From a bacterium (GTDB taxonomy: Bacteria; Myxococcota_A; UBA9160; UBA4427), in assembly GCA_024742285.1 (NCBI GenBank), contig JANSYR010000002.1, forward strand, positions 248,001-312,000: a stretch of DNA of 64,000 nt, read 5' to 3'. Both the position numbers and the translations under genes were made by a program. Shown one piece after another: positions 25,116-36,066 of this stretch. Every line of letters starts with the position of its first letter. Within the stretch, counting starts at the first letter, position 1. Below the pieces are notes generated by a model that made no database searches, was not told the origin of the DNA, and saw nothing but the letters and a program-made list of their open reading frames with translations.

Positions 25116-26201
25116 CTAGCGACGCGGTGTCCCCTCGGATCGAGGGGACCAGTGGAAGCGAAGCCCCGTGAGGGCGCGGAAGCTCCAGCGGTCGTTCTCG
25201 TAGTGCCAGCGAACGAACTCGCCGGGTACGTTCGGATCGACTCCGACCAGGTCGGTTTCCAGGTCCCCGAAGAGCCGGATGGCCTGCCCCTCGACGTAGA
25301 GACTCGCGGACAGCGGGCCAAGCGTCGGTTCGAGCAGGTACTCGAGTTCGAGCCCCGGACCCATGCCGTGATAGACCTCGGTCTGGGCGTCGGACAGCGA
25401 GATCAAGCGGTAGCTGTCGAGCGACGTGTTGGGAGAGCCGAGGCGTACCGCGCGGCGGGACACGCCGACCACGTCGAGACGACTCCTCGAGTAGACGAGC
25501 GACGGTTTCACCCGAACCCGATTGCCGTCCAGGTCGAAAGTCCAGGCGACGCCGAGTGCCGCCACCAGGAGGGGCGATTGCTGCTGGGCGGTGATCGAAG
25601 TCCCGCTCCCCAGAATGAGCGAGTCGCCGACCACGGAAACGGTCGGAAGGATCGGGAAGCGGAACTCGTCGGGTCGGCCGTCCCTCGCGAGGCTCGTCTC
25701 GCTGGCAACGACGCCGATCACGTCGAAGTCGAGGCTGACTCGAGGGGAGCCGAGCCCCTTCGTCAGCTGGGGCGTCAGCACGCCGAAGCCGACGCCCAGC
25801 AGGCCGGAGATCACGTCGCTCCGGCCGAAGATCGGTGAGATCAGCGTCGAGGGACCATCGTTCGCGACCGGATTCGGGGGATTCGGCTGGGGAGGACCGG
25901 TGATCTGCGAGGATGAGGCGGAAGCCTTTCCCGAGAATCCGTCGATGCCCATCGCGAGGGAGAGCGAGAGGGACCACTCGTCGGACTCCTCCGCGTTCGC
26001 CGGACCACTCGTCGCCATGGCCCAAGTGGTGCAGACCGAGAGGAGGATCCTTCCTCTGCGTCCCCACGCCCGGGGCGCGGTGGTTCGGGACGGGGTGTTC
26101 GCAGACTTGTTAGGCGATAGCGAGCGAGGCTCGAACGAGCCCGTCGATCCAGTCGGAAGCGTTCTCGTCAGTCGACGCAAGGTTTTCCACTCCGTGGACA
26201 C
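25116..26201 (-). CDS. Exported outer-membrane beta-barrel-like protein, unknown function
   Basis: A 361-residue frame. A hydrophobic signal segment at about residues 50-70 (GRILLSVCTTWAMATSG, cleavage near PANA) suggests that translation may start further in than the ATG at 26201. The mature part shows alternating polar/hydrophobic strands and ends in FHWSP followed by a short basic tail; segments such as LLVAALGVAWTFDLDGNRVRVKPSLVYS look like barrel strands with turns. I do not recognise a named family. It is divergent from the TonB receptor and converges on the ligase gene, so a joint role in uptake is plausible but unproven. Confidence 0.65.
   Translation of the reverse strand: MSTEWKTLRRLTRTLPTGSTGSFEPRSLSPNKSANTPSRTTAPRAWGRRGRILLSVCTTWAMATSGPANAEESDEWSLSLSLAMGIDGFSGKASASSSQITGPPQPNPPNPVANDGPSTLISPIFGRSDVISGLLGVGFGVLTPQLTKGLGSPRVSLDFDVIGVVASETSLARDGRPDEFRFPILPTVSVVGDSLILGSGTSITAQQQSPLLVAALGVAWTFDLDGNRVRVKPSLVYSRSRLDVVGVSRRAVRLGSPNTSLDSYRLISLSDAQTEVYHGMGPGLELEYLLEPTLGPLSASLYVEGQAIRLFGDLETDLVGVDPNVPGEFVRWHYENDRWSFRALTGLRFHWSPRSEGTPRR
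25129..25149. terminator. Hairpin after the acyl-ligase gene
   Basis: A perfect 8-bp stem GTCCCCTC/GAGGGGAC over a 5-nt loop lies 18 nt downstream of the ligase stop. It sits inside the 3' coding end of the opposing barrel-protein gene, so it may terminate the plus-strand operon. Confidence 0.45.
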
Positions 26202-26557
26202 CGTGGTCCGTGGGGCGCCCGGTGCGTCTCGGCGTGTTGCCGGTTGCGTGCATGTCGAGAGTCGACTGCGGGCGCGTGATGCCTGTTGCGCGAACGGCGT
26301 CAGGTCTTCGCAGTATCTGCCACGGGCCTTCGCGTTTCAATGGAATCGTTCGCGCGATCTCGGCTTTCGAGGATTCTGGAGAAACGACTCGTCGACGCAT
26401 GAATGCCATCAATCCCCCATCTGCGAAGAATGCATGGGCGGTCGAGGTGTCGGCGTGGATAGTCATCAGTCTCGCGATCCGAGTTTCCTGCGCCGACGAA
26501 GTGCACGGCTCGCGGTCGCGATCGCAACTCTCTCCAGCAAGGACGAAGGCTCACTCC
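26202..26557. other. 356-bp divergent region between barrel protein and TonB receptor
   Basis: I see no gene, no RNA and no strong palindrome here. CCGTGG occurs three times close together at about 26193-26214, at the edge of the minus-strand gene. The region should hold the promoters of both genes. Confidence 0.5.
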
Positions 26558-29170
26558 GTGGCTTCGCAATTCCCATCGATGTCGACCCCGCTTCGACGAA
26601 ACGAATCGTCCGGAACGAGGCGCGCGTGCCGGCGCGCGCTCGCGGCCGTGTCCTTGCTCGTGTCGACCGTCGCGAGCACGATGGTGTCCGCCGAGGACGA
26701 TCCTTTCGAGGGGATCGAGGAGATGGTGGTGATCGGCGACAGCACGGCTGGGCTGCTCACGTCGCAGAGCACCTCCGCAATCGGCTTCGACGCCCTCGAG
26801 CTCGGCGAACTCGGCGTCGAGGATCTGAGCGACGTCAGTGCCAGCATTCCGAACTTGTCGATCAGCTCTTCGAACTCGACCAACGCTTCGTTCTTCGTAC
26901 GGGGCGTCGGCCTGCAGGACTTCGGTGCGAACGCGACCGGGGCCGTCTCCATCTATCAGGATGGTGTGCCTCGAAACGCGTCCGCGACGCAGTTGGTGGG
27001 ACTCTTCGATCTGTCGGGGCTCTCGGTACTCCGTGGGCCCCAGGGCGTCGGCTCGTTCAGGAACGCCTCTGCGGGTGCGATTCAGATTCAGACCGCCACG
27101 CCGGAGCCGGAGTTTTCCGCGTTCGCATTGTCGACGGTCGGGCGGCTCACGACGCCCGACGCGCGTGATGCCGCGCGATATCGCTTCGAGGGTGCCGTGA
27201 ACGCACCGATCTACTCGGATACGGTCTCCGCGCGCCTCTCCGCGATCTTCGGACACGAGTCGCCCTTCTTCGAGAACGGCTGCGCGAACCGGTCTTCGCT
27301 CGCTTCGCGTCCCGTCGCCGCGAGCCGGAACGATCCAGCCGCGCAGCTCTGCGACCAGACGGTCAGGAGCGGGCAGGGCGACGGTGAGACCCTGCAGGTG
27401 GGTGAGAGGAGTGGCGTTTCGCCGTTCCTGGGGCGCTATCTGGGCGAGGTGGACGACTGGGGCGTGCGCGCCCAGGTGAGAGTTCAATCGCCGGATCGGA
27501 CGCTCGATCTGATCGTGCGCGGCGAGGTCACCCATCGAAATCGTGACTCCACCGTCGGACAGCATCTCGGCACGGGCGGGCCGTCCGGCAATCTGCTGGG
27601 CGTGCGGGACAACGAGGGGTATCGCGACTCCGACATCACGCGGCTCCAGGATTCGTTGGCGGATCAGGGGGTCCCGTTCGCGGAGGCGCAGGCCATCATC
27701 CAGCGCGGCCTCCGAAAGGACCCGCTCGATGGCGGGCCCTATCGGGGCGACTTCGACAGCCCGGGTCGGACGATTCTCGAGACGCTGGCGCTCTCTCTCA
27801 CGGGGAAGGCCTCCTTCGAGGCCTTCGAGATGAAGACCAACTTCGGCTTTCTCGACTACCGCAAATCCGAGCGACGCGATACCGACTTGTCGCCGAACCG
27901 ACGGTTTCCGTCTGCCGGAAACGACCAGGCGTGGCAGGTCGCGGGAGATGTCGTCTTCTCGGGAGAAGAGTGGCTCGATCTCCCCGTCGTCTGGGAGGCA
28001 GGGGTCTACACGCTGACGGAGCAGGTGGAGGCGGCGCTCGCCCAGGACCTGCTGGGGTCGGCGGCCCGGGACAACCAGTTCACGCAGGAGATCTACAGCC
28101 TCGGGGCGTGGGCGTCGGTCGAGTACGAGTTCCTCGAGGGGCTCACGGTTGCGGCCGGCGCGCGTTACAACTGGGAGCAGAAGGACTTCGAGGTCCAGGA
28201 CATCAACACGCGGTTGCTCGGAAACGGCGGCACGTTCACGCTGCCGCCCCAGCGATCGTCGAATCAGCGAACCTGGGACGCGCTGACCGGCTTCGTCGAG
28301 CTTCGACACGAGTTCACGGCGGACGTCTCGAGCTATCTGCGGTACTCGCGGGGCTTCAAGGCCGGTCACTTCAATCCGAGTCGTCCGCTGGGCGCGAAGG
28401 TGCCGGGAGAGGGCTACGCCGACCCCGAGAGCATCGACGCGTTCGAGTGGGGTGTGAGTTCGTCTTTCTGGAATGGTCGCGTGGCCCTGGACGGCGCCTT
28501 CTTCTTCTATCTCTACCGCAACTACCAGGTGTTCCGACTGTCGGCGACGGAGACCGGCGTCTTCCGCGTGATCCAGAACGCCGAGCGCGCGCGAAACTAC
28601 GGGGCCGAGATGGAGCTCGACCTGCGTCCGCTCGAGGGCATCGCTCCGCCCCTCCTCGAGAACCTGCGTATCCAGTTCCGGGGTGGCTGGCTCGAGACTG
28701 AGTTCCTCGAGTTCACCGAGGTCGACTTTCGGCTCTTCGGGGCCTTCCCGACCACCGTCCTGATCGACTACACGGGCAACCCCCTGATCAGTGCGCCCAG
28801 TCTCCAGGTCTCGGGCACCGTCACCTGGCGCTTCGAGATCCCCGGTATCGGAACGATTACGCCGCGCTACGACTTCTCGTGGACCGACGACGTGCCCTTC
28901 GACGCGAACCGCGGCCGTGGGCAGATCGACGGGCTCGGGCGCAGCAAGTTCTCGCCCTATCTGATCGGGAACCTGGCCTACATGATCCACAACGTCCGGT
29001 TGAGCTACGCGACACCGGACGAAGGGCTCGAAGTTGCGGGTTGGTGTCGCAACGTGACGGACGAGCGATTCACGACCTTCGCGGCCGACATCTCGAACTT
29101 CGCCCGCCAGCAACTCCACTACGTCGGCGATCCCCGGTCCTGCGGTGCCGAAGTCCGACTCGCCTGGTAG
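26558..29170 (+). CDS. TonB-dependent outer-membrane receptor
   Basis: About 870 residues. After a signal peptide (RRALAAVSLLVSTVASTMVSA) comes a TonB-box-like EEMVVIG, then the plug domain (FFVRGVGLQDFG ... VLRGPQGVGSFRNASAGAI near residue 160), then a large beta-barrel with repeated strand/loop pattern and a terminal aromatic residue (EVRLAW). Such receptors import siderophores, vitamins, glycans or hydrophobic compounds using TonB-ExbBD energy. The GTG at 26558 is chosen because GAAGG lies nearby; an ATG at 26579 is the alternative and has no ribosome-binding site. No TonB or ExbBD gene is in the window. The ligand is unknown; the acyl ligase and MFS genes nearby hint at an organic acid or lipid. 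Confidence 0.92.
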   Translation: MASQFPSMSTPLRRNESSGTRRACRRALAAVSLLVSTVASTMVSAEDDPFEGIEEMVVIGDSTAGLLTSQSTSAIGFDALELGELGVEDLSDVSASIPNLSISSSNSTNASFFVRGVGLQDFGANATGAVSIYQDGVPRNASATQLVGLFDLSGLSVLRGPQGVGSFRNASAGAIQIQTATPEPEFSAFALSTVGRLTTPDARDAARYRFEGAVNAPIYSDTVSARLSAIFGHESPFFENGCANRSSLASRPVAASRNDPAAQLCDQTVRSGQGDGETLQVGERSGVSPFLGRYLGEVDDWGVRAQVRVQSPDRTLDLIVRGEVTHRNRDSTVGQHLGTGGPSGNLLGVRDNEGYRDSDITRLQDSLADQGVPFAEAQAIIQRGLRKDPLDGGPYRGDFDSPGRTILETLALSLTGKASFEAFEMKTNFGFLDYRKSERRDTDLSPNRRFPSAGNDQAWQVAGDVVFSGEEWLDLPVVWEAGVYTLTEQVEAALAQDLLGSAARDNQFTQEIYSLGAWASVEYEFLEGLTVAAGARYNWEQKDFEVQDINTRLLGNGGTFTLPPQRSSNQRTWDALTGFVELRHEFTADVSSYLRYSRGFKAGHFNPSRPLGAKVPGEGYADPESIDAFEWGVSSSFWNGRVALDGAFFFYLYRNYQVFRLSATETGVFRVIQNAERARNYGAEMELDLRPLEGIAPPLLENLRIQFRGGWLETEFLEFTEVDFRLFGAFPTTVLIDYTGNPLISAPSLQVSGTVTWRFEIPGIGTITPRYDFSWTDDVPFDANRGRGQIDGLGRSKFSPYLIGNLAYMIHNVRLSYATPDEGLEVAGWCRNVTDERFTTFAADISNFARQQLHYVGDPRSCGAEVRLAW

Positions 29171-29250
29171 CGGGACGACCCGGCGTAGGGCGGGTGACAG
29201 TCGTGTGGGGTTCGCAGCCGCGCCCCATGCGGTTCGCGCGATGTCAGCGT

Positions 29251-30669
29251 CTACGGGAGCTGGTAGCCGAGCGCTCGAAGCTGGTCGAGCTGCATCTCGT
29301 CGAGCTCGAGTGCGCCGGCATCGAAGATCGCGTCGGTCTCGAGATGCCGATCCGCTGCTGCGCGGAGACGGCTGGCTGCCTCCGGGGCTTCGGCGATCTG
29401 GTTGCGCGTGAAGCCGTCCTCGGAAGACAGCAACGCCTCGAAGGGTTCGCCGTCGGCATCCGTCCCGGAGACGTAGCGCAGCCGATCCTCGCTCGCGCTC
29501 ACGGCCGGCTTCCGCTCCGGATCGGGACGTCCCCAGTTCTCGTCGAGGAACGCGAACTGGACCTCCTCGATCCCCGATTCCTCGCGAACTCGTCCCGCCG
29601 GATCCAACGCCCGAAGGATGTCGTCTCGGCGAGATCGTCCGTCGCGCTCGTCGGGCAGGCGTCTTCCCAACAGCTCGAGCAGCGTGGGCCAGACGTCGAG
29701 GTTCGTCGAGGGTCGCTCGATCACCAGCTCTTCCTCGAGCCGGAAGGGCAGCCCGAGGATGAAGGGCGTGTGGGTCGTCTCGGGAAAGACGGCGCGGGCG
29801 TGCCCCTCGAAGCCGCGCTCACCGAACGCCTCGCCGTGGTCGGAGAGGAGGACGAAGAGGGTGTTCTCGAGCAATCCCTCTTCTGCCAGGAAGCTGTGCA
29901 GCTCGGAGATCAGCCAATCCGTTCGGAGCAGCGAGTTGTCGTAGATGTCAGAGGGAGCGCTGCCGAAGAGTGCCGACTGATCGTCATACGTGTACTCGTG
30001 TAGATCCATCATGTGCAGATAGAGGAGCCAGGGCTGGCGCCGGCCGTTGATCCTGAGGAACTCGATCGCGTCGCCGACCAGCTCCTCGTCGCCGGCATGG
30101 CCGAGTTCGTTCGGGCGCAGGCGCTGGAGCCCCGCGTCTCGCAGCTGTCCCATGGGCCGGTAGTAGCGATCGAAGCCTTGATCGAAACCGAAGTAGCCGT
30201 TGACCCATCCGTTTCGGTAGATCCCGACCGTCCGGTAGCCGGCCTCGGACAGGATCTCTGCCGGGAGCTCCGCGTCCTCAGAGAGGACGTGGTCGAACTT
30301 CGTGACACCCGTGCGGAGCGGGTAGAGACCTGACCAGAGCGAAGCCATCGAGGCCTTCGTCCAGGACGACTGCGCGAGATGCTGGTCGAACCGGATGCCC
30401 GAGCGCGCGAGCGATGCGATGAAGGGCGTCGTCTCGCGCTCGTACCCGTATGCACTCATGCGATCGGCTCGCAGGGTGTCGATCAGGACGAAGAGGACGT
30501 TGAGGTCGTCGCGCTGGGCGAGGGCGACGACGTCCTCGACTCCGCCCACGGGTCTCTCGTCGCCGCGTCGGAATCCGAGGTCGACGGATCGGTACACGAA
30601 GAACGAGATGGCCGCGACCGCGAGCATCCAGAGTGCGATCCGCTCTCGACGGCGACGTCCGTTCGACAC
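29251..30669 (-). CDS. Membrane-anchored sulfatase-fold protein with Thr at the nucleophile position
   Basis: A 472-residue protein of the alkaline phosphatase/sulfatase superfamily. A transmembrane anchor at residues 11-27 leads to the metal-binding motif VLIDTLRADR (D64), the nucleophile region SSWTKASMASLWSGLYP and a second metal motif LLSDHGEAFGE (D277, H278), plus H290. In true sulfatases the nucleophile is Cys or Ser in C/S-x-P-S-R, matured to formylglycine; here T104 occupies that place and the P and R are lost, as in phosphoglycerol or phosphoethanolamine transferases. A lipid- or glycan-modifying phosphotransferase or hydrolase role is therefore more likely than sulfate ester hydrolysis. 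It is divergent from a TPR lipoprotein. Confidence 0.82.
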   Translation of the reverse strand: MSNGRRRRERIALWMLAVAAISFFVYRSVDLGFRRGDERPVGGVEDVVALAQRDDLNVLFVLIDTLRADRMSAYGYERETTPFIASLARSGIRFDQHLAQSSWTKASMASLWSGLYPLRTGVTKFDHVLSEDAELPAEILSEAGYRTVGIYRNGWVNGYFGFDQGFDRYYRPMGQLRDAGLQRLRPNELGHAGDEELVGDAIEFLRINGRRQPWLLYLHMMDLHEYTYDDQSALFGSAPSDIYDNSLLRTDWLISELHSFLAEEGLLENTLFVLLSDHGEAFGERGFEGHARAVFPETTHTPFILGLPFRLEEELVIERPSTNLDVWPTLLELLGRRLPDERDGRSRRDDILRALDPAGRVREESGIEEVQFAFLDENWGRPDPERKPAVSASEDRLRYVSGTDADGEPFEALLSSEDGFTRNQIAEAPEAASRLRAAADRHLETDAIFDAGALELDEMQLDQLRALGYQLP

Positions 30670-30723
30670 GAAGCTCCTCCCTTGTGCGCTCGACTTGTGA
30701 TAGGAACGGGGAGACAGCTTTCA

Positions 30724-33081
30724 ATGTCGATCAGGACTACGCCAATGCAACGAATCGATAGTGTGTATGCAGGATCCGGCCGCCGCTCCGTCGCTCCGTC
30801 ACGACTGCGCGTCGCGCACGCGCGACGCTGGCGACCCGCGATCGCGCTGCTGTTGGCGGGGCTCGTCTGGGTGGGTTGCAAGACGAGCGAGGACTCCGTG
30901 ATCGGTCGCGTGCGCGCTCAGCAGCTCGCCGGCGAGTACGCGGAAACGATCGGTTCACTTCGCGAGCTGATCCGAGAGGGGACGATCCGCGGAGAGGTGA
31001 TGGTGCTCTACGCACGCGCGCTGGCGTTCACCGGGCATCCCGGACGGTCGTCCTGGGCGCTCGATACCGCGATGGAGGACCCCGATTGGATCGTGCCGGC
31101 CGGTCTTCAGCTCGCGCGCAACGCCTACGAGAGCGGGAACTATGAGCTGTGCCTTCGCACGCTCGACCGGATCGAATCCGAGCGGCCCGACGCCGGCGAA
31201 CTCGATCGCGTCGCAGCGCGACTGCGGGCGCAGGCCCTGATCGGTACGCGCCGCCACTACGAGGAAGCGCTCGAAATCGTGGAGGGCCTGCTCGACGACG
31301 GCCCCGACGACGAGGTGGCGCTTCGGCTCCAGGGGATCGCGCTCCTCGGTCTCGGACGCATCGAGGAGGCGGAATCCCTGATCACGCAGGCGGGCGACCG
31401 GTCTGCGATCGACGAGGTCGGGCTCCGCCCCGCCGAGGGAGAGCCCTTCTGGTGCTCCGTCCGCGCGCGCTTTCAGCGCGAATCCCGCGACGTGGAAGCG
31501 GCGCTCGTCACGCTCCGCTCCTGTCTCGAGGCCGACCCCGGCGCTCCGCTCCTCGTCCGGGAAGCGGTCGAGCTGTACGCTGCGCTCGGCCAGACGGCGC
31601 GCGTGCTGGAGATCCTCGAAGCGGCCTACGCAGCGGATCCCTCGAATCGCGACGCTCGCCTGGCCCTCGTCGCTCAGCTGGTGGCTTCGGGGCTTCCGGA
31701 GCGAGCCGAGGCGGCCTTGCGCGAGGCCACGAAGAGCAGTGAGCCGCTTCGTGCGGTCGAGGCCTGGATCGACCTCGCGGTCCATCTGGTGAATCAGGAG
31801 CGCGTACCGGAGGCGCTCGAAGCGTACGACCACGCCTTCGGCGGCATGGACGCGGAGCCCTCTCCAGAGCTCCAGTTTGCTCACGCGGAGGCGCTGATCT
31901 TCGCTGGCCGGCACGACGAGGCGCTGCGCATCGCCGACACCACTCCCGTCGAAATCCATCGCCCGATGATTCGCGGACGCGTGGCTTTCGAGCGAGGTCA
32001 GCACGAATCCGCCTTGATGGCGTTCGAAGAGGCGGCGCTCGCCTGGCCGAACAATGCGCCGATTCGCTACTACCTCGGCCGATCCGCGGAGTCGATCGGC
32101 GACTTCGACCGCGCAGTCGAGGAGTATCGGCATGCGCTGCGGTCCGATCCGGCTCTCGCAGAGGCGCGCACGCGACTCGTCGAGATGCACATCGCCGAGC
32201 GCCGCGTCCGCCACGCGCTCGCCGTCCTGCGCTTCTCGTCGCCGCGCCAAGACGCTTCGCCCGTGACGCCCAAGGAGCGATTGCTCGAGGTCGAGCTGCG
32301 CGTGCTCCTGGGCCAGGCGCCGGACCTCGCTCGACTCCCGAACGACCCCGATCGCACGGCGCAGGAGATGGAAGCAGCGGCGATCGAGGCGTTCGTCCGC
32401 GGTCTGCGACGTCGGGGGGGCGCGCAGGCCGTGTTGGTCGGCCTCGGTACGCTCGACCGAACGCGACTCGGAGCGCCGGCGTGGGACGTCGCGCGGGCAT
32501 CCCGGGTGGAGGCGCTGCTCGCGCTGGGCCGTGATGACGACGCGCTGGCGGAAGCCCACCGAGCGGTCGAGGAGAGACCGGGAGTCGACCGGGTGCAGAT
32601 CTCGCTCGCCGACGCGCTGGCACAGGGGCCGGCGGGGACGCCGAAGGCGAAGTCGATCTACACGGCGGTCCTCGAACGAACACCCGGCCACCCCGATGCA
32701 TTGCTCGGCCTGGCCCAGTTGGCTCGTGCGGACGGGGACATCGACGGTGTCGCGCTGGCGCAGCGCGCGCTCGGGGCACGGCCCGGCGACGCGGAGATCC
32801 TGGAGGAGCTCGTCGACGCGCTGTTGCGCTCCGGGCGGCGGGACGACGCGATCGCGGCGCTCAGACGCCAGCTCACGCGAGAGGCACCGTTCGACGGCCG
32901 GGCCGCGTTGCGGCTTGCGGAGCTCCTGCCGCCCAACGCGGAGACGGAGGGCGAGCGGCGTGAGCTCCTTCTTCGTGCGCTGCGCTTCGGCGCGGGGGAG
33001 CCCGCCGCACGTCGCCTCGCCGAGCTCGACCCGGAGGCGGGCGAGGAGGGCGCCTCGAATCGTCCGTCGGAAAGGCTCTGA
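30724..33081 (+). CDS. TPR-repeat lipoprotein (possibly PEP-CTERM-system PrsT-like)
   Basis: A 785-residue protein. The N-terminal hydrophobic segment ends in VWVGC (Cys 52, or 45 from the second ATG), a probable lipobox. The remainder is an almost unbroken helical solenoid of tetratricopeptide-like repeats, for instance APIRYYLGRSAESIGDFDRA with following EEYRHALRSDPALAEAR, and a second block near the C-terminus. Long TPR lipoproteins accompany exosortase/PEP-CTERM loci, and a PEP-CTERM protein is encoded 1.8 kb downstream, but the link is only inferred. GGGGAGA lies before the ATG. It faces the repeat lipoprotein gene convergently. Confidence 0.8.
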   Translation: MSIRTTPMQRIDSVYAGSGRRSVAPSRLRVAHARRWRPAIALLLAGLVWVGCKTSEDSVIGRVRAQQLAGEYAETIGSLRELIREGTIRGEVMVLYARALAFTGHPGRSSWALDTAMEDPDWIVPAGLQLARNAYESGNYELCLRTLDRIESERPDAGELDRVAARLRAQALIGTRRHYEEALEIVEGLLDDGPDDEVALRLQGIALLGLGRIEEAESLITQAGDRSAIDEVGLRPAEGEPFWCSVRARFQRESRDVEAALVTLRSCLEADPGAPLLVREAVELYAALGQTARVLEILEAAYAADPSNRDARLALVAQLVASGLPERAEAALREATKSSEPLRAVEAWIDLAVHLVNQERVPEALEAYDHAFGGMDAEPSPELQFAHAEALIFAGRHDEALRIADTTPVEIHRPMIRGRVAFERGQHESALMAFEEAALAWPNNAPIRYYLGRSAESIGDFDRAVEEYRHALRSDPALAEARTRLVEMHIAERRVRHALAVLRFSSPRQDASPVTPKERLLEVELRVLLGQAPDLARLPNDPDRTAQEMEAAAIEAFVRGLRRRGGAQAVLVGLGTLDRTRLGAPAWDVARASRVEALLALGRDDDALAEAHRAVEERPGVDRVQISLADALAQGPAGTPKAKSIYTAVLERTPGHPDALLGLAQLARADGDIDGVALAQRALGARPGDAEILEELVDALLRSGRRDDAIAALRRQLTREAPFDGRAALRLAELLPPNAETEGERRELLLRALRFGAGEPAARRLAELDPEAGEEGASNRPSERL

Positions 33082-33096
33082 CGGCGACCGGCCGTC
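33080..33096 (+). terminator. Hairpin at the end of the TPR lipoprotein gene
   Basis: GACGGC/GCCGTC arms with a 5-nt loop overlap the TGA stop. It lies in the 83-bp convergent gap. Confidence 0.35.
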
Positions 33097-33164
33097 GGCG
33101 ACTCAGGCCGCGAGACGCTCGCTGGGAGGCGGTGCACGGTGGCCGCCCCGGCGAAGCGGAGAGT

Positions 33165-34499
33165 TCAATCGGCCAGCTGGGCGCCTAGCGCGGGTCCGGG
33201 GGCGGGGGAGAGAGCGCGGGTCGGCGAAGCCGGGCCGCTGCCCGAGTCGGTGTTCGCGGCAGTGATGCGTTTCCACTGGTCGTCGGCGAGCAGCTCGCGA
33301 TGCTCGTTGATCCAGGCGCGCGCGGCCGGCTCGTCGACGCCGATCCACTTCCGTACGACCCAGAGGATCGTCACGGATCGTCGGGCCGAGTCGACGATCG
33401 CCTCGGTTCTGCGCAGCATGGCGTTCCAGTCGACGTGCTCGCCGGCCGTGTTGACTGCGCGTCGGATCGACTGGATGCGCACCGGATCCACCCAGGATTC
33501 ACCGCCATGCGCGTCGATCCATCGGGTCATCGCGGGCGGATCGACGCGGCTCCAGGTGCCGGCGACCCGCGCGACCGCCGAGTTGCGGTCCGCGGTGTCG
33601 CGCAGGGTCGAGAGCCAGTCCATCGCCGCGGTGGGGTCGTGATCCGCCCAGTTGCGCGCGATTCGAGGGACGAAGTTGCGCACGTCCATTCCGTCGGCCT
33701 CGACCTGCGAGAGCCAGATCGCAGCGAGCGCCGGGTCCTGGCCCGCCACCACCGAGAGCGCGCCGGCCATCAGCAGACGTCGCTGGTCGGACTCGAACTC
33801 CGGCGTCGACCAGGCCCACTCGAGGGCGGCCGTTCCGCCGTCACGAAGCGTTCGAACGCGGGCGTAGGTGCGGAGTCCCTGCGTGACGTCGGACGCGTCC
33901 TCGAGTGAGCCCAGGAAGTCGGCGAGCCCCGGCTGACCGGATTCGAACCAGCCGACCACCAGCGCGTCCAGCAGGTCGATGCGATAGATCGGCGCACCGG
34001 GGGCCACCTCGAAGAGGAGCCCGCTCGCCGCGACGGTCTGTGGATCCTGTCGCGCCCATGCGCGCACGATCGTCGAGATGACCCGTGGGTGGCGCGCGCG
34101 AAGGGTCGCTTCGGCCCAACCGAATGCGCTCTCCGGATCGAAGCCCGCCCACCACTCACCGAAGAGGGCGTACTCGACGTCGCCGCGGTCGAGGGCCGCG
34201 TTCTCGAAGGTGCGCCGGATGCGATCGAGCTCCCCGGGGCTCGCTTCGCTCAGGTACATCGCGACCCAGGCAATCCGGTCCAGCGCCTCGTCGTGGGTGA
34301 GAACGTCGGCGAGAAGCGCGTCGGCCGGAATCGCGTCGCCTCGGGACACGCTCTCCTGCGTCGGGGCACCGCATCCGAGCACGCCCGCGAGGAGAGTCAG
34401 TACCACGGCCATCCGGCCGCGTTTCGGAAGGCTCTGAGCAGCCTTGGGAACGAGCGGGCTGCGGCGTGCCGATGGCCGGCGGGCGAGTTCGCGAATCAT
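33165..34499 (-). CDS. Lipoprotein built of degenerate W-x3-D-P-x-A repeats
   Basis: A 444-residue protein with a basic N-terminus, hydrophobic segment and lipobox VLGC (Cys 43). The mature region contains at least six copies of a degenerate unit: WWAGFDPESAFGW, AWARQDPQTVAAS, VVAGQDPALAAIW, NWADHDPTAAMDW, TWSRVDPPAMTRW and KWIGVDEPAARAW, each separated by about 30-75 mainly helical residues. This predicts an alpha-solenoid. I do not know a function for the family. The ATG at 34499 has a very strong GAGGAGG upstream, which excludes the longer in-frame extension. Its neighbours are a TPR lipoprotein and a PEP-CTERM protein. Confidence 0.8.
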   Translation of the reverse strand: MIRELARRPSARRSPLVPKAAQSLPKRGRMAVVLTLLAGVLGCGAPTQESVSRGDAIPADALLADVLTHDEALDRIAWVAMYLSEASPGELDRIRRTFENAALDRGDVEYALFGEWWAGFDPESAFGWAEATLRARHPRVISTIVRAWARQDPQTVAASGLLFEVAPGAPIYRIDLLDALVVGWFESGQPGLADFLGSLEDASDVTQGLRTYARVRTLRDGGTAALEWAWSTPEFESDQRRLLMAGALSVVAGQDPALAAIWLSQVEADGMDVRNFVPRIARNWADHDPTAAMDWLSTLRDTADRNSAVARVAGTWSRVDPPAMTRWIDAHGGESWVDPVRIQSIRRAVNTAGEHVDWNAMLRRTEAIVDSARRSVTILWVVRKWIGVDEPAARAWINEHRELLADDQWKRITAANTDSGSGPASPTRALSPAPGPALGAQLAD

Positions 34500-34845
34500 G
34501 AGGCCTCCTCGAGGTGGACGACGCCGTCGCCAGGTCGCGAAGTCCGGGCGGGCCGAGAGTGCCGGAGGGGGAAGCGGCGGCGCAAGGCTGTGGGGATGCA
34601 GTTGCTCGATGTGCAACATGCCGTCTGTGAATTTGAATCCGACCGATCCGGAGTGAGAGAATTGATCTCGGCCACGACATGCAGAGCCGGGACCGCACGC
34701 GCGGAGATGGACCCGATTCCCGGCGCCCAGTGGTGCGTCGGGAGGAGCGGAGGGTCGAGGCTCGACGAGGCGCGCGCGACGGCACGCACGGATCACACAG
34801 ACGAATGACGGATGCGACCCGTGTCGGATCCCTAGGAGAGAACGC
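34500..34845. other. 346-bp divergent region upstream of the PEP-CTERM gene
   Basis: No gene is seen. The middle part (about 34605-34675) is richer in A+T than its surroundings and contains GTTGC/GCAAC arms around 34600-34617. It probably carries the promoters of the repeat lipoprotein (minus) and the PEP-CTERM protein (plus), but I could not define convincing -35/-10 pairs. Confidence 0.5.
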
Positions 34846-36066
34846 ATGAGCAGGTTCGAGATACCGGCAGCCGGCGCTGCCATTCTGACGATGGCCCTGG
34901 GGCTGTCGGCGTTCACGGCGACGGCGCAGACGGTGGCCATGAGCGGCCAGTACCACCAGAGTTCCGGACGCACGGTCAACCTACCCATCAATCCCCTGAC
35001 CCCCTGCGACCCGTCCCAGAGCGCACGTTGTCACGGGGCCGGTGTGAACGGCGGTACGCCCGCCTACGTCGAGCCCTCGTCGGGGGTGCCCGTCGCGGGG
35101 GGGCATCGGATCATTCCCGGTGGCCTCGGTGTCGGCGATGCCTTCACCGTTCCGACGGACGCCTTCACCCAGCCTGGCGTCCGGAGTTCGACGCCGATTC
35201 TCAACAACGTTGCGATCCTGCAGCTCGACACCACCTTTTCGTATGCCGGTCCGGCGTCGGGGCGGGCGCGAACGCCGGCGCCGCTCACGCGCGTCATGTC
35301 CGCCATGAACTGGACGAAGCCGGGCGCGGGGCAGGCCGGCCGCCTGGCCGCGAATACGACGCCCCTCGATCCGGCGACCCAGACGGAGTTCTTCGTAGGG
35401 CTCTCGTTCGACGCGGGCCCGAACGAGTTCGGTGGGACGATGGCGATGCTGCTCGCCGGATCGGGTCGCGTCTATCTGAACGGCGTCATCCTCGGCAGCG
35501 CAGCCGGCGCGACCTCCACGCGCCCCTGGGTCGGGACGAACCCGGTGGGTGGGAGTCCGACGTTTCGGACGCGCGATGGCGCGGGCTGGGGCTACACGAC
35601 GATGGGAGGCCAGCCGCCGGGCGTGATCATCAACAACGCGGGCTTCGCCGCGCCCTGCACCCAGGAGTTCCCGCCCGGCCCGGCGGGTTGTGGTCTCGTG
35701 ACCGACTTCACGGGCACGACGATCGGAACGATCCCGGCAGCGACTTCCACCCGCTGGCTCTATCCCTGGACCACCGGAACCGTCGAGGTCGTGCGGACCG
35801 GCACCGTGGGCGGCAACCCGTTCAATCAGACGCTGACGGGGATGGGGTACGACACGACGTCGATGACGACCGGTGGCGGGACCGTCCGCAACATCGGGCT
35901 GGTGACCGGCGGATACTATCGTCGGACCTCTGCGTCGGGTGTCGACAATCTCTTTACCGTCACGGGCATGGACCTTCAGTTCGTCCCGGAGCCGGGGGCG
36001 TTGGCCTCGCTGGTCTTCGGGGTCGGTTGCCTGGGAGCGCTCACGCATCGTCGACGCAACGGCTGA
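34846..36066 (+). CDS. PEP-CTERM sorting-domain protein
   Basis: A 406-residue secreted protein. The signal peptide (residues 1-28) ends near TATAQ. The body is rich in G, T, P and N with few charges. The C-terminus has the three-part PEP-CTERM signal: VPEPG near residue 380, a hydrophobic helix (ALASLVFGVGCLGAL) and a basic end THRRRNG. In PEP-CTERM bacteria an exosortase recognises this signal and anchors or releases the protein, commonly in exopolysaccharide producers. No exosortase is in the window, so it must be encoded elsewhere if the signal is used. AGGAGAGAA precedes the ATG. A long hairpin follows 65 nt after the stop. Confidence 0.88.
   Translation: MSRFEIPAAGAAILTMALGLSAFTATAQTVAMSGQYHQSSGRTVNLPINPLTPCDPSQSARCHGAGVNGGTPAYVEPSSGVPVAGGHRIIPGGLGVGDAFTVPTDAFTQPGVRSSTPILNNVAILQLDTTFSYAGPASGRARTPAPLTRVMSAMNWTKPGAGQAGRLAANTTPLDPATQTEFFVGLSFDAGPNEFGGTMAMLLAGSGRVYLNGVILGSAAGATSTRPWVGTNPVGGSPTFRTRDGAGWGYTTMGGQPPGVIINNAGFAAPCTQEFPPGPAGCGLVTDFTGTTIGTIPAATSTRWLYPWTTGTVEVVRTGTVGGNPFNQTLTGMGYDTTSMTTGGGTVRNIGLVTGGYYRRTSASGVDNLFTVTGMDLQFVPEPGALASLVFGVGCLGALTHRRRNG

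Follow-up and report, generated by a model that had tools for sequence, protein, structure and literature searches.

The PEP-CTERM/exosortase (EpsH/XrtA) system with its PrsT protein was described by Haft in 2006 (PMC1569441). In Anabaena, the zinc exoprotein ZepA, which belongs to the PEP-CTERM proteins, mediates the uptake of zinc, and TBDT genes are found around its own gene (PMC10957091). Other points of reference are the IPTL-CTERM/XrtH system (TIGR04174/TIGR04177) and the SusCD-type PULs and TonB islands. The fate of PEP-CTERM proteins after exosortase cleavage, and the proteins that act on them, are to our knowledge largely unknown. The module described here is a concrete multi-copy partner set for one cargo family, with a predicted phospho-chemistry, so that the exosortase pathway gains candidate partners. 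No published description of it was found in searches of open-licence papers on PEP-CTERM combined with sulfatase, TonB, exosortase, TPR and Myxococcota.

The window (the whole stretch of 64,000 nucleotides that was analysed, C2:248001-312000) is part of a 6.5-Mb draft genome (G000). A first-pass annotation had proposed a cluster of the four genes SULF, TPR, REP and PEPC, and all four are present where it had placed them. Its extent has to be widened, as the genes for a TonB-dependent receptor (TBDR) and an outer-membrane barrel (OMP) to the left also belong to the unit. The resulting six-gene unit, OMP< TBDR> SULF< TPR> REP< PEPC>, occupies window positions 25,116-36,066:

25116..26201, minus strand: OMP, outer-membrane beta-barrel-like protein; start possibly 26018
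26579..29170, plus strand: TBDR, TonB-dependent receptor with a TonB-box-like EEMVVIG and a plug domain
30669..29251, minus strand: SULF, membrane-anchored enzyme of the alkaline-phosphatase superfamily, with Thr104 at the nucleophile position
30670..30723, divergent, 54 bp: intergenic region between SULF and TPR, whose sequence was read
30724..33081, plus strand: TPR, lipoprotein with tetratricopeptide repeats, similar to PrsT but under its cut-off
about 34499..33165, minus strand: REP, alpha-solenoid repeat lipoprotein with W-x3-DP-x2-A repeats; start possibly 34412
34846..36066, plus strand: PEPC, with a signal peptide, a WTTG...GxD C-terminal domain and a PEP-CTERM tail

Gene calls are our own, made with a codon model on fetched stretches; starts are uncertain by some codons. 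The four genes of the first-pass annotation alternate in strand (-, +, -, +), giving three divergent pairs, and because of this alternation they cannot be read as an operon. The 54-bp gap between SULF and TPR is probably a shared promoter region. Divergent SULF-TPR gaps are short in relatives too, e.g., 39-96 bp in L074, L076, L078 and L079.

In the host genome, SULF and TPR are paired at four loci, all of which also have cargo, TBDR, OMP and REP genes nearby: the window copy on C2, two copies on C3 (~450-468 kb and ~326-337 kb) and one on C7 (~188-199 kb). When 60 relatives were searched with SULF and REP as queries, the two were found a few kb apart in many of them, in multiple copies per genome. 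The relatives are nearly all MAGs, filed as Myxococcota or Deltaproteobacteria, and all data are MAG sequence. After 20 loci had been fetched, their genes called with the codon model and their proteins clustered, the order OMP< TBDR> SULF< TPR> REP< PEPC> was found again in different genera and families of a single order of uncultured Myxococcota, and the alternating orientation itself is kept over the same range. Reshuffled variants of the same parts occur as well, such as OMP< REP< TBDR< SULF< TPR< pep> and REP> TPR> REP< TBDR> SULF< PEPC<. Other lineages carry a short form consisting of SULF, a PEP-CTERM gene and one or two TPR proteins, without TBDR, REP and OMP; in L140, L156, L160 and L163, for instance, a PEP-CTERM gene adjoins SULF, and there is usually a TPR gene as well. 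Genes scattered in all relatives, which the first-pass annotation had named as the outcome that would speak against it, are thus not what is seen.

Counts around SULF agree with this picture. Within 6 kb, 60 of the 76 unique loci contain a TPR gene, 54 a TBDR, 44 a REP and 35 an OMP gene, with many of these loci cut by contig ends. Where at least 5 kb is available on both sides, a PEP- or IPTL-tailed gene lies at most 6 kb from SULF in 28 of 34 loci, against a background of 7 tailed genes out of 216. By hand count, the same distance holds in the host for all four module sulfatases and for three of its 18 others (Fisher p 0.005). OMP has the same neighbour in 14 of the 21 loci compared. REP is present in 42 of the 379 phylum genomes sampled, all of this order. 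There is strong support for the genes being a unit.

Some copies have additional features. In L116 (G024:C17:13471-16758), two identical SULF genes stand in an inverted array, OMP< TBDR> SULF< SULF> TBDR< OMP>, which reflects either an inverted duplication of recent date or a fold-back in the assembly. Extra AlkP-type or TPR lipoprotein genes adjoin SULF in the short-form loci L155, L156, L160 and L161 of other lineages; in L160, D-Ala-D-Ala ligase and LarE genes are next in line, and in L161 look-alikes of D-Ala-D-Ala ligase and LarE and of GatC/GatA come after. In two genomes of one genus (L083, L084), one module type has a fused MFS-like/spermidine-synthase gene and an FG-GAP/ASPIC-UnbV protein on its flanks. 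Beyond OMP, many copies (L078, L079, L082, L087, L092), though not the one in the window, have an adjoining gene for MEM6, a membrane protein of ~710 amino acids with a DDLWWHL motif and, in one member, a TPR-like C-terminus; no family was found for it.

PEPC has the make-up of a PEP-CTERM substrate, with an N-terminal signal peptide and a C-terminal PEP motif, hydrophobic helix and basic end. Its tail scores 23.4 bits with TIGR02595 (cut-off 16), and in the genome search the protein scored 19.8 bits with PF07589, under the cut-off of 20.7. The PEP-CTERM proteins of the module are one family, with a conserved C-terminal domain right before the tail (PWTTGTV ... GxDxRT ... I.LV). An initial PEPC HMM missed divergent cargo, and tail patterns were used instead, together with an HMM of the C-terminal domain trained on 11 cargoes, window PEPC included, with their tails removed. 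Window PEPC scores 85.6 bits on this HMM as a member of its training set, and cargoes of other module types are detected too. In contrast, of the 38 further PEP-CTERM proteins that were read from the host genome, the HMM matches a single one; the domain is missing from the other 37, and the sole match is a cargo paralogue without a module. The PEPC proteins of the modules are a dedicated cargo family. The orphan paralogue (G000:C3:78300-79646; L205:8300-9646) scores 359 bits with the PEPC profile, has no SULF, TPR or TBDR nearby and is followed by a second PEP-CTERM-like gene. The AlphaFold2 model of PEPC (pLDDT 47) was too poor for a fold search, and a comparison of its profile with PDB sequences gave nothing meaningful.

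The tails of this family are not all of one class. Four of the eight IPTL-like tails tried score 22.0-24.6 bits with the IPTL-CTERM model TIGR04174 (cut-off 20.5), and another scores 18.8. Compared as profiles without their tails, the PEP-rich and an IPTL-tailed cargo set match with 98.6% probability and a third set with 93%; the hhalign probability of the most distant sets is only 20-30%, yet at the same motif. On the SULF tree, the IPTL label requires nine changes, at least five of which are forced by supported branches, and the PEP clade of the window is nested within a mostly IPTL clade. The tail class is exchanged between PEP and IPTL while the module is retained; this amounts to a natural experiment, with two exosortase classes handling cargo of the same kind.

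A genome without an exosortase was the other outcome that the first-pass annotation had regarded as contrary to its proposal. The host encodes four PF09721 exosortases over the cut-off, on contigs other than that of the window, and one XrtH-like protein under the TIGR04177 cut-off, as well as 69 PEP-CTERM matches (63 over the PF07589 cut-off). An exosortase is present in all 42 REP-positive genomes, compared to 83 of 337 other sampled genomes of the phylum, although this comparison is confounded by descent and exosortases are present also in order members without REP. No exosortase gene was seen inside the module. With loci matched to genomes by contig, XrtH (TIGR04177) is found in 10 of the 11 genomes with IPTL cargo (G011, G012, G019, G021, G022, G024-G027 and G029), eight times over the curated cut-off, and was not detected in the remaining one, G045. 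Of the suggested sorting or assembly module tied to an exosortase elsewhere, the tie to exosortases is upheld by the dedicated cargo family and by the exchange of tails with the module kept, whereas a role in assembly or sorting is something we infer.

The XrtH-like gene of the host (G000:C3:410473-410880; L206:7459-8043) has an ExbB-ExbD pair on one side and a DUF3450-ExbB-ExbB-ExbD-ExbD run on the other. In the relatives inspected, no Ton genes were seen beside XrtH, and most have a partner ORF of ~160 amino acids there. A linkage between XrtH and TonB was given no weight, as the ExbB/ExbD neighbours are not repeated in these relatives.

Protein distances correlate at 0.77-0.90 for each pair among SULF, TPR, TBDR, REP and OMP. 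As a control, partners were shuffled among the paralogous copies inside each genome, by which the species tree is preserved. The shuffled means are 0.33-0.55, and the observed value was reached in none of 500 shuffles for nine of the ten pairs; the exception is REP-OMP (n = 20), with 11 of 500. Because this co-divergence at the level of paralogues exceeds that under within-genome shuffling, the module copies descend and diverge as units. In a partial-correlation test (n = 22), in which SULF distances are the least noisy, cargo divergence follows SULF (partial r 0.35, p ~0.001) and TPR (partial r 0.195, p ~0.008), while the relation with TBDR, after accounting for SULF and TPR, is not significant (partial r 0.046, p ~0.26). 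These partial correlations, together with the loci that lack a TBDR, lead us to regard SULF, TPR and cargo as the core and the TonB receptor as an added arm.

SULF matches PF00884 with 157 bits (cut-off 25) and has a single N-terminal membrane segment. It has the fold of an S1 sulfatase, but not the C/S-x-P/A-x-R with a catalytic Cys or Ser. Aligned to PDB sulfatases, it has Thr where they have FGly, and Met replaces Arg; all 76 homologues read T-K-[ACST]-S-M compared to the FGly maturation motif C/S-x-P/A-x-R. An identity as FGly-dependent (S1) sulfatase is ruled out by these active-site residues. Equally invariant in all 76 are D64, T104, K105, S107, M108, H219, D222, H224, D277, H278 and H290. 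Thr at the nucleophile position, as part of the set D64, T104, D277 and H278, and the second set D222, H224 and H290 are what is expected of a Thr-type AlkP enzyme. NPP-type phosphodiesterases and EptA/LtaS-type transferases are characterised by an Asp-Thr-Asp-His set that is joined by a second set, Asp/His/His. The roles of these residues as metal ligands and nucleophile are presumed from knowledge of the superfamily rather than from a structure. Because the invariant residues match this pattern, SULF is predicted to be a phospho-enzyme of the phosphodiesterase/phosphotransferase type.

REP has no Pfam or NCBIfam family. Its AlphaFold2 model (pLDDT 84) is an all-helical solenoid, for which a fold search against the PDB returned only generic alpha-solenoids (best E 0.013, with TM-scores not above about 0.28 for the matches listed). 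Searches of PDB sequences with the REP and OMP profiles gave nothing meaningful; we consider REP a new family. The earlier description of two solenoid lipoproteins is accurate for the window copy but does not extend to the family, since only 11 of 56 REP homologues have a lipobox and 33 have a plain signal or anchor. In the TPR family, a simple pattern finds the lipobox in 44 of 70 members. OMP has a C-terminal FxWxx ending and no Pfam, NCBIfam or PDB match.

The explanation that we tentatively place first is a multi-copy, cargo-specific envelope module for surface display or modification, in which SULF and TPR act on the cargo and TBDR, OMP and REP serve as an outer-membrane arm. PEPC would be secreted, and its C-terminal tail would keep it in the inner membrane, where an exosortase encoded elsewhere would cleave it and hand it on, presumably XrtA/D/W-like for PEP tails and XrtH for IPTL tails. 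SULF and the TPR lipoprotein would be the core that acts on the cargo, with SULF most likely attaching or trimming a phospho-linked group on the cargo or its acceptor, by phosphodiester or phosphoalkyl chemistry and not by removal of sulfate. TBDR, the OMP barrel and REP would be an added outer-membrane arm, present chiefly in two of the order's families; this arm may hold the displayed cargo or employ it in catching a substrate whose uptake TonB drives. Several observations fit this explanation less well: TonB receptors normally import, which favours plain uptake; the module is without a visible exosortase gene; G045 pairs IPTL cargo with no detected XrtH; the most distant cargo types are only weakly similar; and REP is a lipoprotein in some copies only.

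Plain uptake is the strongest competitor, possible but somewhat less probable. The unit would then be a nutrient-capture island like a polysaccharide-utilisation or metal-uptake locus, with TBDR as importer, the TPR and REP lipoproteins as a SusD-like lid, the cargo as a surface binding protein, SULF as a periplasmic phosphodiesterase degrading the imported substrate and the copies devoted to different substrates. SusD-like proteins are helical TPR-type lipoproteins, which counts in its favour, as do the several diverged copies per genome and the fact that 54 of 76 loci have a TonB receptor with both plug and barrel; in the window, TBDR scores 80 bits with PF00593 (barrel) and 36 bits with PF07715 (plug), both over the cut-off. 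Nonetheless, SusD and SusC models have no match in the unit, glycoside hydrolases are absent from it, SULF, cargo and TPR occur without TBDR in other families, and cargo divergence does not follow TBDR once SULF and TPR are accounted for. Among the NCBIfam TonB subfamilies, all scores of TBDR are under the cut-off, with no substrate-specific match. What keeps this explanation alive is the precedent of ZepA, the zinc-uptake protein with a PEP-CTERM tail and TBDT genes nearby (PMC10957091). The TBDR-free loci and the partial correlations make us favour the display or modification unit.

Export or surface assembly without any uptake, with the barrels carrying cargo outwards and the solenoids acting as chaperones, appears unlikely. 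The TPR protein, which has many TPR-family matches, is closest to PrsT of the XrtA system, although its 110.7 bits with TIGR02917 are under the equivalog cut-off of 312.2, and PrsT-like TPR proteins have been suggested as adaptors for protein modification (PMC1569441). A dedicated cargo with its constant domain immediately before the tail would also suit an exporter. However, the TonB box is retained, and we know of no TonB receptor that exports. Just as improbable in our judgement is a bolder version of the display and modification unit, a cargo-specific anchoring machine downstream of exosortases, in which SULF would attach a phospho-linked envelope anchor to the cleaved cargo C-terminus and the displayed cargo would complex with the TonB receptor at the outer membrane. 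If true, it would fill in a step after cleavage that the exosortase pathway has so far lacked, and the exchange of PEP and IPTL tails would represent two sorting routes that deliver to the same machine. A loose neighbourhood, close by descent without a common function, is very improbable: alternating strands, the lack of an operon in most copies and the possible inheritance of gene order in MAGs would allow it, but the order is kept across families despite high divergence (~50% identity for SULF, ~30% for REP), several paralogous copies per genome co-diverge at the paralogue level, and the cargo family is specific to the module.

The module resembles several known systems without coinciding with any of them. 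With EptA/MCR, LtaS and NPP, SULF shares the Thr nucleophile position, the Asp/His metal ligands, a membrane anchor and a predicted periplasmic side, yet it has one N-terminal membrane segment and an overall sequence closer to S1-type sulfatases. In SusCD-type PULs and TonB islands, too, solenoid lipoproteins and an enzyme of the phosphatase superfamily accompany a TonB receptor, and a genome has several copies, whereas the module has neither a SusC/SusD match nor carbohydrate enzymes, and its cargo is exosortase-sorted. ZepA is also a PEP-CTERM exported protein near TBDT genes, but belongs to a different protein family, and the consulted part of its description reports no AlkP enzyme, TPR or REP (PMC10957091). 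The EpsH/XrtA-PrsT system is similar in the signal peptide and PEP-CTERM tail of the cargo, the TPR lipoprotein, and the exosortase and large PEP-CTERM set in the genome. The module differs in that its TPR protein is under the PrsT cut-off, multi-copy and outside an EPS/exosortase locus, that it adds TBDR, OMP, REP and, linked to a single cargo family, an AlkP enzyme of the Thr type, and that its cargo tail may be IPTL instead of PEP. The latter recalls the IPTL-CTERM/XrtH system, as several module cargo tails exceed the IPTL cut-off and most such genomes have XrtH; in the module, however, the same cargo family has PEP-CTERM tails in other members, including the one in the window.
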